Of a stretch of DNA of 64,000 nt, positions 1 through 6,198 are shown piece after piece. Each line of letters begins with the position of its first letter. The stretch's first letter is position 1. The translations under genes and the position numbers were made by a program. Location of the stretch: NCBI GenBank assembly GCA_017441505.1, contig JAFRXL010000043.1, forward strand, positions 62,001 to 126,000. Direction: 5' to 3'. Below the pieces are notes generated by a model, which saw only the letters and a list, made by a program, of their open reading frames with translations, searched no databases and had not been told where the DNA came from. The DNA comes from Ruminococcus sp. Lineage in GTDB: Bacteria; Bacillota; Clostridia; Oscillospirales; Ruminococcaceae.

Positions 1-2459
1 ACGGCGATTCTGCTCTTGATACGGACTCTATTGAGCGTAACAGGGGAATTACTATTTTTGCTCATCAGGCTGAATTTGACATTGATGATACGCATATATC
101 TCTTCTTGATACTCCGGGACATATCGATTTTTCCGCTGAAACCGAACGAACAATGAGGGTGCTTGATTATGCTGTACTCGTCATAAGCGGTACTGACGGG
201 ATACAAAGTCACACAATGACACTCTGGAAGCTCCTAAGCAGATATGAAGTGCCGGTTTTTATTTTTATAAATAAAATGGACCTTATTGGTGCTGACAGAA
301 AATCAGTTCTTGAAAAAATTCAGAACAGACTCTCAGATATGTGTACTGATTTCAGCGGAACAGAGGCTCAGATAATTGAAAACACTGCTATGTGCAGTGA
401 CGAATATATGGAGAAGTATCTATCTGAAGGCACTTTGAGTGACGATGATATTGTCAAAGCGATAAAACAGCGTCAGGTTTTTCCGTGCTGTTTCGGCTCT
501 GCACTGAAAATGGACGGTATCGATCGGTTTATGGAGCTTATCGGACGTTATACCACTGAGCCTGAAAGAACAAGCGAGTTCGGGGCAATGGTCTATAAGA
601 TCTCATACGACCCGAAAGGAAGCCGTCTTACACATTTAAAAGTAGTTAATGGTGAGCTGAAAATGCGTGCTGAACTTACATATACCGATCAGGACGGAAA
701 TGAGATCACAGGCAAAGTCAGCTCGCTCAGGATATATTCGGGTGAAAAATTCAGGAACGCTGAAAGTGCAACAGCAGGAGAGGTGTGTGCTGTGACCGGA
801 CTGCCTTCGACATTTGCAGGTCAGGGACTCGGCAGCATAAGGAATTCAGATAGGGCTCTACTCGAACCTGTTATGACATATAATGTTGCGATACCGGATG
901 AAATCAATATTCACGAAGCACTTAAAGATATGCGTCGCCTTGAAGATGAGGACCCTCAGCTGCATATACTCTGGAACGAGCAGCTGAGAGAGATACATAT
1001 ACAGCTGATGGGAGCTGTACAACTTGAAGTTCTTACAGAGATGATAAAGCAGCGTTTTGGTTATAAAGTTGAATTCCTTGACGGTGCTATTGCTTACAAA
1101 GAGACTATTAAGAATATAGTTGAGGGAGTAGGGCACTACGAGCCGCTCAAACACTATGCGGAGGTTCATGTTCTTCTTGAACCTCTTGAACGTGGCAGCG
1201 GAGTAAAAATCGACACTATCGTACCGGAAGATGAACTTGACCGCAACTGGCAGAGACTTATACTCACTCACTTTGAAGAAAAAGAACATATCGGAGTACT
1301 TACAGGTTCGCCTATAACTGATATAAAAATTACACTTGCTGCCGGAAAAGCTCACGTAAAGCATACTGAGGGAGGAGATTTCCGTCAGGCCACCTACAGG
1401 GCTATACGTCAGGGACTTCGCAATGCGGAGAGCGTATTGCTCGAACCGTATTATGATTATGAGATAGAGATACCCTCCGACTGTGTAGGCAGGGTGATCT
1501 CCGATCTGCAGCATATGTCGGCAGAGTTCAGCTCACCTGAGATAACAGGGGATATGGCAGTTATTTCCGGTACAGCTCCGGTATCTGAGATGAACGGTTA
1601 TCAGCAGGAACTTATAAGCTTTACAAAGGGACGTGGCAGACTAAGCTGCTCGGTTGGCGGATACTGTGAGTGCCATGACGCTGAAAGAGTCATAGAGCAG
1701 ATAGGTTATGACTGTGACGGCGATACCGAAAACAGTGCGGACTCCATATTTTGCTCGCACGGAGCAGGCTATATGGTCAAATGGAATGAAGTTCCGGACT
1801 ATATGCATCTTCCTTCATGTCTGAAAGACGATGATGAGCATGAGGATGAGGAAGTCAGGATAGGCAAAGCAAAGCGGTTTATAGAAAATGCAGTCTCAGA
1901 AAAAGAGCTCATGGAGATTTTTGAGCGGACATATGGCAAAATCAATGTCGACCCACGAAGAGCTTTCAAAAAGAGCAAGGCTGTGTCCATAGAAAATAAG
2001 CAGGTCAAGCTCCCGAATTACGAGGGTCCGGACTACCTTCTTGTCGACGGTTACAACATTATTTTTGCTTGGGACGACCTGAAAAAAATCTCCGAAGAAA
2101 ATCTTGATGCCGCAAGAGCAGAGCTGGTCAATATGATGTGCAATTATCAGGGATATGCCGGCTGTGAGCTGATACTCGTTTTTGACGCTTATAAAGTCAA
2201 GGGCAAGCACAGGGAAGTCGAACGTCACTCAAATATCAATATCGTCTATACTAAGGAGTCCGAAACAGCCGATTCCTACATAGAGCGTGTCACGCATGAG
2301 CTCTCAAAGAAGCATCGTGTGCGTGTTGCTACCTCTGACGGACAGGAGCAGATGATAATACTCGGTAACGGAGCACTGCGTATCTCGGCAACCGATCTCA
2401 GAAAAAGATATGAATCAGCTATGGGAGCTATAAGAGAGTATATTGAATCGATGAAATAA
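1..2459 (+). CDS. TetM/EF-G-like translational GTPase fused to a Rae1/YacP NYN endonuclease domain (5' partial)
   Basis: The reading frame is open from base 3, so the start codon and P-loop lie before the window. Seen: the switch I sequence RGITI, G3 DTPGH (about 113-127) and G4 NKMD (about 273-284), then EF-G-like domains II to V as in TetM/TetO ribosomal protection proteins. After an acidic linker (about 1815-2020) comes a roughly 140-residue NYN domain with VDGYN (about 2042-2056), VFDA, TKESETAD and VATSDGQEQ. These match the YacP/Rae1 family, whose Bacillus member is known to cut mRNA in the ribosomal A site. TetM-type GTPases also act at the factor/A-site region, so a joint ribosome-rescue or stall-surveillance role is inferred, not shown. 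It is not a canonical tetracycline-resistance gene. A rho-independent terminator follows. Confidence 0.85.
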   Translation, partial: GDSALDTDSIERNRGITIFAHQAEFDIDDTHISLLDTPGHIDFSAETERTMRVLDYAVLVISGTDGIQSHTMTLWKLLSRYEVPVFIFINKMDLIGADRKSVLEKIQNRLSDMCTDFSGTEAQIIENTAMCSDEYMEKYLSEGTLSDDDIVKAIKQRQVFPCCFGSALKMDGIDRFMELIGRYTTEPERTSEFGAMVYKISYDPKGSRLTHLKVVNGELKMRAELTYTDQDGNEITGKVSSLRIYSGEKFRNAESATAGEVCAVTGLPSTFAGQGLGSIRNSDRALLEPVMTYNVAIPDEINIHEALKDMRRLEDEDPQLHILWNEQLREIHIQLMGAVQLEVLTEMIKQRFGYKVEFLDGAIAYKETIKNIVEGVGHYEPLKHYAEVHVLLEPLERGSGVKIDTIVPEDELDRNWQRLILTHFEEKEHIGVLTGSPITDIKITLAAGKAHVKHTEGGDFRQATYRAIRQGLRNAESVLLEPYYDYEIEIPSDCVGRVISDLQHMSAEFSSPEITGDMAVISGTAPVSEMNGYQQELISFTKGRGRLSCSVGGYCECHDAERVIEQIGYDCDGDTENSADSIFCSHGAGYMVKWNEVPDYMHLPSCLKDDDEHEDEEVRIGKAKRFIENAVSEKELMEIFERTYGKINVDPRRAFKKSKAVSIENKQVKLPNYEGPDYLLVDGYNIIFAWDDLKKISEENLDAARAELVNMMCNYQGYAGCELILVFDAYKVKGKHREVERHSNINIVYTKESETADSYIERVTHELSKKHRVRVATSDGQEQMIILGNGALRISATDLRKRYESAMGAIREYIESMK

Positions 2460-2737: not shown

Positions 2738-4135
2738 ATGAAAAAAGTTCAACTGACAGAAACTGTTCTTCGTGATGCCAATCAGTCACTGATGGCTACA
2801 CGACTGCCTTATGCAGACTACGAGGGCATCCTTGCTGATATGGATAAGGCTGGCTACTATTCTATTGAGTGCTGGGGAGGAGCAACATTTGACTCTTGTC
2901 TCCGCTACCTTAACGAAGATCCGTGGGAGAGACTTCGCAATCTCAGAAAAAATCTTCCTAATACAAGACTCCAGATGCTTTTAAGAGGTCAGAATCTTCT
3001 TGGCTATAAGCACTATCATGATGACGTTGTGGAGAAGTTCATCGAGCTTTCTATCAAGAATGGTATCGATGTTATCCGTATTTTTGACGCTCTTAATGAC
3101 TTCAGAAATATAGAGACTGCTCTCAATGCTACAAAGAAGTACGCTACAAAGAAGACTATAGCATCAGGCTGTATCTCATACACACAGAGCCCTGTACATA
3201 CAGTAGATAAGTATATCGAAATGTGTAAAGAACTCAAGACTATGGGATTTGATACTATCTGTCTCAAGGATATGGCTGGTACAATGTCTCCATACGAAGC
3301 TGAGCACCTTATCAAGGGCATCAAGGACGCTATCGGTGATATGACACTTATCCTTCATACACACTGCACAACAGGTATGGCATATATGACTCTTACCAAG
3401 GCTATCGAGTCCGGTATAGACGTTATCGATACAGCTACATCATGTTTCTCAGGCGGCACTTCACAGCCTGCAACAGAGACAATGTTCTATGCTCTCCAGC
3501 AGTACGGAATTGAGTCCGGACTTAATGAGGACATTATAAATAAGGTAAACGACTACTTCAAGCCGATCAAGCAGAAGTACATAGACAATGGTCAGATCAA
3601 TCCAAAGAGCCTTGCTACAGATGCTCAGGCACTTGTATATAAGGTACCGGGCGGTATGCTTTCAAATATGATCGCTAACCTTACTGATATGCACGCAATG
3701 GATAAGTTCGATGAAGCACTTGCTGAGATACCTAAGGTAAGAGCTGATATGGGTTATCCTCCGCTTGTAACTCCGCTTTCACAGATGGTAGGAAATCAGG
3801 CTGTTACAAACGTGCTCGTTGGCGAGAGATATAAGAACATCTCTAAGGAAATAAAGAATTACATCAAGGGTGAGTACGGTAATCCGCCTGCACCTATCGC
3901 TCAGGAACTTGTAGATAAGGTTCTTGGCGACAGCCAGCCTGTTGACTGCCGTATCGAAGACCAGAAGCGTACAGGTGAGGAATTCAAGGCTTCTAAGGAT
4001 GCTCTTGGCGACCTTTGCCGCAGCGAAGAAGATGTAATGAGCTATATCTGCTATCCGGATCAGACTATCAACTTCCTCAAGAATCGTAAAGCACAGGAAG
4101 AAAATGAAGCTGTTTACACTATCGAGGAAATGTAA
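2738..4135 (+). CDS. oadA: Oxaloacetate decarboxylase alpha subunit, carboxyltransferase part
   Basis: A 465-residue carboxyltransferase of the OadA/PycB family. It moves the carboxyl group of oxaloacetate to biotin in the first step of the Na+-pumping decarboxylase. Visible motifs are the N-terminal ETVLRDANQS (DRDAHQS-type metal and substrate site), LKDMAG with the catalytic-site lysine, and HTHCTTG with metal-binding histidines. Unlike enterobacterial OadA it has no C-terminal biotin domain. That domain is a separate gene two places downstream, as in other Firmicutes. Its ribosome binding site is GAGGAGG. Gene order alpha, gamma, biotin carrier, beta supports the assignment. A methylmalonyl-CoA or pyruvate carboxyltransferase role is possible but less likely next to OadB. 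Confidence 0.88.
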   Translation: MKKVQLTETVLRDANQSLMATRLPYADYEGILADMDKAGYYSIECWGGATFDSCLRYLNEDPWERLRNLRKNLPNTRLQMLLRGQNLLGYKHYHDDVVEKFIELSIKNGIDVIRIFDALNDFRNIETALNATKKYATKKTIASGCISYTQSPVHTVDKYIEMCKELKTMGFDTICLKDMAGTMSPYEAEHLIKGIKDAIGDMTLILHTHCTTGMAYMTLTKAIESGIDVIDTATSCFSGGTSQPATETMFYALQQYGIESGLNEDIINKVNDYFKPIKQKYIDNGQINPKSLATDAQALVYKVPGGMLSNMIANLTDMHAMDKFDEALAEIPKVRADMGYPPLVTPLSQMVGNQAVTNVLVGERYKNISKEIKNYIKGEYGNPPAPIAQELVDKVLGDSQPVDCRIEDQKRTGEEFKASKDALGDLCRSEEDVMSYICYPDQTINFLKNRKAQEENEAVYTIEEM

Positions 4136-4150
4136 GGAGGCAGCAATATT

Positions 4151-4564
4151 ATGTTTGAAAAGATCACTCTTGCTGCTGAGGCTGCTACAGAAGCTGCTAC
4201 CGAAGCGTCATCAAAAGGCGACGAACTCTCAATAGGTGATGCTGCTATAACAGCTATATTTGGATATGCCGTAGTATTTTTCGGACTTGTTATACTTATG
4301 GCAGTACTTTACTGCACAGGAGCATATTTTAAATCCAAGGATGAAAAGGCTAAAAAAGCTGCTGAGGAAGCAAAGAAGGCTCAGCCGGCAGCAGAAAAGC
4401 CTGCACCGGCAGCCGAGCAGAAACTTGCTCCTGGTTCAGCCGGACACGTAAAGCTTTTTGATGTTCCGGATAAAGAGGCTGCAATGATAATGGCTATCGT
4501 TGCCGACAAAATGCAGACTCCTCTCAATGAACTTCACTTTATTTCCATTAAGGAGGTCAAATAA
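4151..4564 (+). CDS. oadG: OadG-like gamma subunit of the sodium-pump decarboxylase
   Basis: A 137-residue protein with one membrane helix near residues 34-53 (YAVVFFGLVILMAVLYC), followed by a charged Lys/Ala-rich stretch, an Ala/Pro linker and a conserved C-terminal segment. OadG family proteins are small one-pass membrane subunits that hold the alpha subunit onto the beta subunit. An Ala/Glu-rich segment before the helix is unusual in composition. It is 15 bases after oadA and 2 bases before the biotin carrier gene, so the genes are probably translationally coupled. Assignment rests on topology and operon position more than on sequence motifs. Confidence 0.75.
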   Translation: MFEKITLAAEAATEAATEASSKGDELSIGDAAITAIFGYAVVFFGLVILMAVLYCTGAYFKSKDEKAKKAAEEAKKAQPAAEKPAPAAEQKLAPGSAGHVKLFDVPDKEAAMIMAIVADKMQTPLNELHFISIKEVK

Positions 4565-4566
4565 CA

Positions 4567-4965
4567 ATGAAGTATAAAGTAACACTCAACGGTAAGACAT
4601 ATGAGGTAGAGGTAGAAAAAGGCAAGGCAGTTCTTCTTGATGAATATGAGGCACTTGCTCCTGCACCTGCGGCAGCAGCTGCTCCGGCTGCGGCGGCAGC
4701 ACCGGCACCGGCAGCCGCTCCTGCACCTGCTGCACCGGTAAATCTTGCAGCAGGCGAAACAGTTGCAGCTCCTATGCCAGGAAATATCATAAGAGTCGAT
4801 GTTGCTCAGGGAGATACTGTAAAAGCCGGACAGATACTCATTATCCTTGAAGCTATGAAAATGGAGAACGAGATCGTTGCTCCTAAGGATGGTACAGTCG
4901 CTCAGGTGGTAACAAGCAAGGGTGCGGTAGTTGATACAGGTGCACCACTGGTTGTTATAGCATAA
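4567..4965 (+). CDS. Biotin carboxyl carrier protein of the decarboxylase complex
   Basis: A 132-residue biotinyl protein. The biotin attachment motif EAMKMEN is clear, with the modified lysine between the two methionines, inside a C-terminal lipoyl/biotinyl fold starting near VAAPMPGNI. Between a short N-terminal segment and the biotin domain lies a low-complexity Ala/Pro linker of about 35 residues that lets the arm swing between the carboxyltransferase and the membrane pump. It corresponds to MmdC/GcdC-type subunits. Its ribosome binding site AAGGAGG overlaps the end of oadG. Confidence 0.88.
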   Translation: MKYKVTLNGKTYEVEVEKGKAVLLDEYEALAPAPAAAAAPAAAAAPAPAAAPAPAAPVNLAAGETVAAPMPGNIIRVDVAQGDTVKAGQILIILEAMKMENEIVAPKDGTVAQVVTSKGAVVDTGAPLVVIA

Positions 4966-4977
4966 GGAGGGCGGCAT

Positions 4978-6198
4978 ATGGATATTCTTGAAACCCTTGA
5001 GACCCTGTGGAACGGTTCCGGATTCAAGAGCCTTTTTACAGGTGACGGTTGGAAGAACCTTATTATGATCGCTGTATCATGCGTTCTTCTTTATCTTGGA
5101 ATCAAAAAGAAGTTTGAACCGCTTCTTCTTGTAGGTATCGCATTCGGATGTCTTCTTGTAAATCTCTCATACTTCGTTGGCGGAGACACAGCTGATGCTC
5201 TGTATCACCTTGATCTGTGGGATCATTTCCTTGATGAAAGTCATCCGGATTATCACAGTTACGGAGCAATAATGTCACACGGCGGTCTGCTCGATATACT
5301 TTACATAGGCGTTAAAGCCGGCGTATATCCTTCACTCATTTTCATGGGTGTCGGAGCTATGACAGATTTCGGTCCGCTTATATCAAATCCAAAGAGCCTT
5401 CTTCTTGGTGCAGCAGCTCAGATGGGTGTATTTATGGCATTCTTCGGAGCGATATGCTTAGGATTTACCGGACAGGAAGCCGCTTCGATAGGAATCATCG
5501 GCGGTGCTGACGGTCCTACAGCGATATTCCTTACAACAAAACTTGCTCCTCATCTTCTCGGAGCTATAGCTATCGCAGCTTACTCATACATGGCACTTAT
5601 CCCACTTATACAGCCTTTCTTTATGAATCTTCTTACTACTGAGAAGGAAAGAAAGATCAAAATGGAACAGGCAAGACAGGTATCTAAGACAGAGAAGATC
5701 ATCTTCCCTATACTTGTTGCAATGTTCGTAATACTTCTTCTCCCGTCAACAGCTCCGCTTGTAGGATGCCTCATGCTTGGTAACCTCTGGAGAGAGTGCG
5801 GAGTTACAGAAAGACTTTCCGATACAGTTCAGAATGCTCTTATGAACATCGTAACTGTATTCCTCGGAATCTCAGTTGGTGCAACAACTGCTGCTGACAG
5901 ATTCCTTTCACCTGAAACTATCAAGATCATCGTTCTTGGACTTACAGCATTCTGCTTCTCAACAATAGGCGGACTTCTTGTAGGTAAGCTCATGTGCAAG
6001 CTTTCAGGCGGAAAGATCAATCCGCTTATCGGTTCTGCCGGAGTTTCCGCAGTACCTATGGCAGCAAGAGTATCACAAATGGAAGGTCAGAAAGCTAATC
6101 CTTCAAACTTCCTTCTCATGCACGCTATGGGACCGAATGTTGCAGGTGTTATCGGTTCAGCTATCGCTGCCGGATTCCTTCTTGCAGTATTCAAGTGA
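4978..6198 (+). CDS. oadB: Oxaloacetate decarboxylase beta subunit, Na+ pump
   Basis: A 406-residue polytopic membrane protein that decarboxylates carboxybiotin and exports Na+. The family hallmark GGADGPTAIF is present (about 5502-5531), along with the late conserved segments GSAGVSAVPMAARV and NFLLMHAMGPNVAGV. Hydrophobic helices run the length of the protein, and the size is typical of the family. It is the last gene of the operon, with an AAGGAGGG ribosome binding site and a strong terminator 33 bases after its stop. The complex would couple oxaloacetate turnover to a sodium gradient in a fermenting anaerobe. Confidence 0.92.
   Translation: MDILETLETLWNGSGFKSLFTGDGWKNLIMIAVSCVLLYLGIKKKFEPLLLVGIAFGCLLVNLSYFVGGDTADALYHLDLWDHFLDESHPDYHSYGAIMSHGGLLDILYIGVKAGVYPSLIFMGVGAMTDFGPLISNPKSLLLGAAAQMGVFMAFFGAICLGFTGQEAASIGIIGGADGPTAIFLTTKLAPHLLGAIAIAAYSYMALIPLIQPFFMNLLTTEKERKIKMEQARQVSKTEKIIFPILVAMFVILLLPSTAPLVGCLMLGNLWRECGVTERLSDTVQNALMNIVTVFLGISVGATTAADRFLSPETIKIIVLGLTAFCFSTIGGLLVGKLMCKLSGGKINPLIGSAGVSAVPMAARVSQMEGQKANPSNFLLMHAMGPNVAGVIGSAIAAGFLLAVFK

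Follow-up and report, generated by a model that had tools for sequence, protein, structure and literature searches.

The 64,000-nucleotide stretch of Ruminococcus sp. DNA analysed in this study (the window) opens inside a gene whose product joins an EF-G-like translational GTPase to a YacP/Rae1-type NYN domain. In Clostridia this fusion substitutes for the free-standing Rae1, and a genome carries one form or the other. Our general interpretation, which we hold to be evenly poised between right and wrong, is that the fusion is a chromosomal, stably inherited, ribosome-directed mRNA endonuclease which has taken over the job of free Rae1/YacP in many Clostridia, with the GTPase half delivering or gating the cutter. 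The initial annotation, which read the protein as a TetM/EF-G-like factor joined to a YacP/Rae1 NYN domain, had named both halves correctly, as judged by Pfam and by a PDB match.

An uninterrupted frame occupies window positions 3-2459 (+) and is the 3' portion of an 860-codon gene that starts 124 bases upstream of the window. The N-terminus, which was missing from the initial annotation, was recovered as 42 upstream codons (L002:7877-8002), completing the gene (L002:7877-10459, which is G000:C19:61877-64459); codons 43-860 lie inside the window. Five EF-G-type domains were placed by Pfam on the full protein (GTP_EFTU 6-226, EF-G_D2 235-315, EFG_III 330-400, EFG_IV 404-517 and EFG_C 520-601), followed by a conserved tail, a linker and the YacP/Rae1 NYN domain. 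The profile search agreed with the proposed assignment of the C-terminal domain to NYN/YacP (NYN_YacP 721-857, E 6.9e-48, 163 bits against a curated cut-off of 24.6). The features within the window, in window coordinates, are as follows.

1..2459, + strand: fused translational GTPase-NYN gene, codons 43-860 and stop (open frame, Pfam)
3..554, + strand: G domain, residues 43-226 of 6-226, the P-loop lying upstream of the window (Pfam)
579..821, + strand: EF-G domain II, residues 235-315 (Pfam)
864..1076, + strand: EF-G domain III, residues 330-400 (Pfam)
1086..1427, + strand: EF-G domain IV, residues 404-517 (Pfam)
1344..1382, + strand: domain-IV tip loop, residues 490-502, of the HTxGGDF type and not the Tet SPVSTPADF type (conservation)
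1434..1679, + strand: EF-G domain V, residues 520-601 (Pfam)
1653..1835, + strand: conserved C-terminal tail of the GTPase subfamily, residues 593-653, also on unfused relatives (comparison)
1836..2024, + strand: variable linker, mostly of low confidence in the L120 model (comparison, AlphaFold2 model)
2031..2447, + strand: YacP/Rae1-type NYN domain, residues 719-857, with Asp 724, 770, 799 and 821 and 39 residues past the TSD motif (Pfam, PDB match, conservation)

The source assembly was 79.55% complete, and the one YacP domain found in it was the fused one. The closest named relative, L120, was 98% identical and came from a Ruminococcus sp. MAG from sheep rumen. On this pair alone, dS being saturated in other pairs, dN/dS came to 0.031 in domains I-V and to 0.008 in the NYN part, which points to strong purifying selection on both halves. 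An AlphaFold2 model was made for L120 (42 sequences, mean pLDDT 78, pTM 0.53). In this model the GTPase half took the EF-G fold, the tail was folded to about residue 650, the NYN domain formed a separate fold, and the linker was poorly ordered, of low confidence with two helices; the relative placing of the two halves was left loose because the pTM was low. All 50 Foldseek matches listed for the model belonged to EF-G, EF-G2 or related factors (the best with E 3e-53 and a TM-score of 0.45 over the query), and a separate NYN match was absent from these 50. Linker length in the fused proteins ranged from 68 to 134 residues (median 78, n=119).

The architecture has been in print since 2015. The available portion of Atkinson 2015 (PMC4342817) describes, in ten Clostridiales, 'Tet' proteins that carry a YacP-like NYN domain. 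The window protein belongs to that set as described there: it comes from the same bacterial group, the Clostridia, and has the same architecture, a YacP-like NYN domain placed after EF-G/Tet-type domains. In that portion the proteins are grouped with the Tet resistance proteins and a resistance mechanism is supposed for them, whereas the present analysis places the GTPase in a sister clade with another tip and finds Rae1 replaced. The initial annotation had stated that such fusions occur in related Clostridia and are not experimentally described. Their occurrence was borne out, and a search of the open-access literature found no experiments on the GTPase-NYN fusion, but the architecture itself had already been reported. 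New here are the replacement of free Rae1, the sister-clade position of the GTPase, the C-terminal loss and the lack of a Tet-like leader.

The fusion was found again in 80 loci kept from 284 relatives, and 129 of the 393 class genomes carried it. As it recurs across many assemblies it is no artefact, and the assembly error that the initial annotation had allowed for can be set aside. The 393 class genomes were scanned for the YacP domain (250 matched) and for the GTPase tail (165 matched), and the results were joined per genome. The 165 tail-bearing genomes comprised 129 with the fusion in a long frame, 27 with an unfused GTPase and nine that were set aside for cut, short or broken frames (G044, G156, G172, G185, G190, G203, G206, G235 and G295); the tail was absent from 228. 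Genome G190 had been a candidate for the unfused group on its frame of 618 aa, but it aligned across residues 5-856 and was therefore set aside. Genome G071 was scored as fused, with an NYN match spanning positions 1-75 only.

An intact free-standing YacP besides the fusion was found in a single fused genome (1/129, G284), against a free-standing YacP frame in 112 of the 255 unfused or tail-less genomes; one further, G261, was a contig-edge fragment under the cut-off, and its removal reduced 113 to 112. It is from these counts that replacement of Rae1 by the fusion is concluded. The Fisher p value of 8e-24, computed with 113, is descriptive only because the genomes are related. Weak second NYN matches in G120, G174 and G208 (E ~5e-4, below the cut-off) were not counted as YacP. 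In the phylum sample all 30 fused genomes had a single YacP match. In the class sample the fusion spanned 25 families and kept both of its halves intact, and four families (f22, f23, f27 and f47) each held fused genomes together with tail-less genomes carrying a free YacP. Relics of both forms were observed, and they point in both directions: G370 had the fused gene plus frame-broken pieces of a free yacP, and G206 (7% contamination) had a free yacP plus a 57-residue piece of the fused gene.

The C-terminal 146 residues of the window protein matched the solved B. subtilis YacP (5mq8, 5mq9) with E ~5e-28. The catalytic aspartates, which the initial annotation expected to be kept, were Asp 724, 770, 799 and 821 in full-protein numbering, and were conserved in all 122 fused proteins of the conservation table, from which two TypA rows were excluded, and in 29/29 free proteins. 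B. subtilis Rae1 shares the acidic NYN residues, and is likewise present once per genome; it differs in being free-standing, whereas the NYN domain of the window protein stands behind an EF-G-like GTPase and is 25-odd residues shorter at its C-terminus. The available portions of two reports describe the B. subtilis enzyme as one that cleaves mRNA within the A site (PMC12320835, PMC10100781).

The stretch past the TSD motif was at most 45 residues in 74 of 121 fused proteins and 64-68 residues in all 27 free YacP proteins measured, proteins that lacked the TSD pattern, one fused and two free, being omitted. As the 27 were best-scoring matches, 49 further genomes were checked by profile coverage; they gave 48 free YacP frames, two of which ended at profile positions 146 and 149. 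In counts made by hand, coverage stopped by position 149 of 166 in 22 of the 80 long-frame rows listed, compared with 2 of 113 free rows (65 + 48). The window protein covered the profile to position 142 of 166 and did not have the full-length C-terminal stretch of free Rae1. That stretch is no strict definer of the NYN_YacP family, since other fused lineages retain it. At least three changes were required to explain the shortening on a tree of 42 fused rows, and the full Rae1 C-terminus was retained in many fused lineages. In B. subtilis, Rae1 R166P arose among loss-of-function suppressors (PMC6613710). Free Rae1 seems to need its own C-terminus and many fused proteins do not, as would be expected if docking is now performed by the GTPase half.

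In the NYN tree fused and free domains were separated with two exceptions, the free domain of G209, which fell within the fused set (98/88), and the fused row L057, which adjoined the free set with weak support. Genome G209 (L236/L241, L028) has a free YacP of the fused lineage and an unfused GTPase of the other lineage. A simple fission of the fused gene was considered for G209 and rejected: the GTPase of this genome clusters with the unfused ones (88/77), which leaves the NYN domain as the only part derived from the fused lineage. The combination is either a natural partner swap or a coincidence.

On the GTPase side, the G-domain residues K20, T21, T59, H82, N132, K133 and D135 were invariant in 122/122 fused proteins. 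A tail of about 55 residues (GYxxC...SVFCxHGxGxxVxW...MH), which carries no Pfam name and is also found on unfused relatives, followed the EF-G-type domains. Its C599 (121/122), C626 (122/122) and H644 (119/122) were conserved, and these Cys and His residues might bind metal. In a tree of 59 sequences, the fused and unfused tail-bearing proteins formed one clade (100/99), which was sister to TetM/O/W/B(P) (100/99) and apart from three EF-G/EF-G-like rows; the Tet side comprised four Tet proteins, Tet(Q) and Otr(A) being left out. The unfused Ligilactobacillus salivarius protein fell amid the fused ones in this tree without a resolved position. In a tree of 46 rows with more unfused rows, the fused proteins formed a single group (91/85), which makes a single fusion event likely, and the fusion probably arose once. 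The unfused tail-bearing GTPases (L. salivarius megaplasmid, Paenibacillus and Clostridiaceae-like genomes) share the clade and the tail, and nine of ten have the HTxGGDFR tip motif, seen also in 121/122 fused proteins; they differ in stopping at the tail at about 640-670 residues, without an NYN domain, with or without a separate YacP in the genome.

EF-G-type factors bind the ribosomal factor site with domain IV in the A site. On a paused ribosome, the EF-G-like GTPase half of the fusion would dock in the factor-binding site and the A site and would withdraw upon GTP hydrolysis; the NYN domain on its long linker would then enter the vacated A site and cleave the mRNA in the manner of Rae1. 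Since domain IV and Rae1 are each expected to occupy the A site, the two halves must act in turn. A bolder reading, in our view less likely than not, is a GTP-gated A-site mRNA endonuclease: a tRNA-mimicking GTPase probes the ribosome, and the tethered Rae1 swings in to cut the mRNA only where a stalled ribosome leaves its A site open. Such an enzyme would be a housekeeping factor for translation surveillance in gut Clostridia, would have displaced free Rae1, and would count neither as an EF-G nor as a protein of tetracycline resistance. We infer the GTP gating, the order of events, the A-site cleavage, mRNA as the substrate of the fused enzyme and the triggering signal. Counted as support for the general interpretation were the replacement of free Rae1, the relics in G370 and G206, the catalytic residues of both enzymes in 122/122 proteins, the low dN/dS, the shortening of the Rae1 C-terminus, the short leaders without an attenuator, and the EF-G fold with a separate NYN domain in the model. 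The unfused GTPases without YacP, the presence of both forms in G284, the B. toyonensis resistance protein described below, and the full Rae1 C-terminus kept in many fused lineages were counted against it. The initial annotation had suggested a GTP-driven ribosome surveillance enzyme; surveillance of the Rae1 type is the best reading because the fusion occupies the place of free Rae1, while a GTP-driven cut would be a further step.

If the general interpretation is right, many gut bacteria weld a ribosome-associated mRNA cutter to a translational GTPase, and the fusion offers a direct route to the question of how A-site cleavage stays confined to stalled ribosomes. In that case some of the proteins that automated annotation now names TetM/W/O/S-family resistance proteins may act in surveillance instead. 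As free Rae1 has been exchanged for the fusion in nature, complementation in B. subtilis can be used to test the question.

Alternatively, the fusion may be a tether only, with a GTPase that has its own ribosome function and an NYN domain that is simply Rae1 kept near ribosomes, without GTP gating; we regard this as rather doubtful. An unfused GTPase without any YacP match was found in 6 of 27 class genomes and 3 of 7 phylum genomes, so the GTPase exists independently of the nuclease, as a tether would allow. The length and poor order of the linker, and the free-standing NYN domain of the fused lineage in G209 beside a GTPase of the unfused kind, also fit a tether. Against it stand the persistence of the fusion over 25 families with both halves intact, and the C-terminal shortening of Rae1, which suggests that docking has shifted to the GTPase. 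The co-occurrence of unfused GTPase and YacP was tried as proof of a partnership and rejected: in the phylum sample it was at the background rate (4/7 compared with 229/398), and the class figure (21/27 vs 92/228, p 3e-4) was discarded because 14 of the 21 came from the single family f38.

A protection protein against tetracycline or another ribosome drug, in which drug ejection would fall to the GTPase and the stalled mRNA would be dealt with by the RNase, as suggested in the available portion of Atkinson 2015 (PMC4342817), is unlikely. The sister position of the clade to the Tet proteins is in its favour, and PGAP calls some members TetM/TetW/TetO/TetS family. TetM, TetO, TetW and TetB(P) share the five EF-G-type domains and are the nearest outside group in the tree, but they differ from the fused protein in tip motif, tail, model score and leader. 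The Tet tip motif SP[VA]STPADF was found in 4/4 Tet proteins but in 0/122 fused and 0/10 unfused members. On the NCBIfam Tet model NF012153 the window protein scored 424 bits and the tail-bearing proteins 381-430 bits, compared with a cut-off of 775 and 878 for the TetM control; on the EF-G model TIGR00484 the window protein scored 321 bits against a cut-off of 659.4. Given the sister clade, the other tip and scores under both the Tet and EF-G cut-offs, the GTPase half is best classed as a subfamily of its own beside Tet, neither within the Tet clade nor EF-G. The term 'ribosomal-protection-type' used in the initial annotation thus holds broadly but not strictly, and its suggestion that the enzyme clears drug-stalled ribosomes found no support of its own here. 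Resistance-gene predictions of the kind seen at tet loci were missing from five tail-bearing loci, two of which were wholly unannotated.

The unfused GTPase on the L. salivarius megaplasmid (L079), near a copy of rpsN, is annotated as a TetM/TetW/TetO/TetS resistance protein. As it scored 381 bits on the Tet model, below the cut-off of 775, this is likely an over-annotation.

A promoter-like site was found in 60 of 118 upstream regions of fused genes (13 after shuffling), with a median leader of 27 nt. A terminator-like hairpin lay between promoter and start in 2 of these 60 regions, and in 20 it lay only upstream of the promoter, whereas the TetM control had a hairpin about 40 nt before the start; the fused genes are thus predicted to be without a Tet-like attenuator leader, which is also at odds with drug protection. 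An attenuator had been considered, as terminator-like hairpins were present in 34 of 119 upstream regions compared with 85 of 524 background ORFs (p 0.003; the background includes spurious ORFs, and the sets of 119 and 118 may contain two TypA rows), and was rejected with only the 2 of 60 within the leader.

A chromosomal TetM-like protein of B. toyonensis confers tetracycline resistance, its deletion lowering the MIC from 16 to 1 ug/ml, and is 647 aa long by the printed coordinates, according to the available portion of the report (PMC5209696). It might be an unfused member of the tail-bearing clade, since size and chromosomal location would fit, and would then count for drug protection; a drug role of the clade is possible for the same reason. 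A primer of the B. toyonensis gene matched 0 of 299 genomes of one order. In the follow-up the tail was present in 3 of 20 picked genomes, and the one tail-bearing genome that was read had a 653-residue protein with the HTxGGDF tip and no primer match above chance.

That the fusion is an rRNA/tRNA maturation nuclease guided to the ribosome, an older proposal for YacP-like NYN domains quoted in the available portion of Atkinson 2015 (PMC4342817), is highly improbable: in the Listeria locus that was read, free yacP adjoins rlmB, a gene for an rRNA methylase, and yacO and rae1 of B. subtilis act in one pathway (PMC6613710), but B. subtilis Rae1 has mRNA targets (PMC10632193; PMC10100781, available portion), and the fused gene had no conserved neighbour across 107 loci, the commonest type (ABC-ATPase-like by its letters) occurring in 11.

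With respect to mobile elements, a PADLOC search gave no match that would indicate an anti-phage role, and a scan for viral contigs gave no sign of phage origin. Of 1385 matching records in the plasmid collection, two spanned 80% or more of the query, one from Monoglobus (518 kb) and one from Agathobacter (252 kb). The phage collection contained two 'Bacteriophage sp.' records of human faecal origin and without annotation, MT835563.1 and MT835514.1, that encoded near-full-length fused proteins (51.6% and 45.9% identity); these are either true phage cargo or mislabelled bacterial DNA.

Upstream of the window, a 139-bp dispersed repeat (L002:7684-7822, or G000:C19:61684-61822) with 58 matches in the genome separates the fused gene's start from a promoter-like site; it is missing from the same position in the 98% identical L120. 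Further upstream, L002:1189-6804 contains a gene for an RtcB RNA ligase (E 4e-107), one with DUF2828/DUF7788 that is reminiscent of Ro60-type proteins, and two more genes, one of them with a WCX domain. These are possibly an RNA-repair cluster. In 4 of 107 loci, two of which came from the window species, RtcB-like genes were close to the fused gene. Downstream, window 2738-6198 carries genes for a PYC_OADA carboxyltransferase and an OAD_beta sodium-pump subunit, and by our own reading the small genes between these two resemble a biotin carrier and a gamma subunit.
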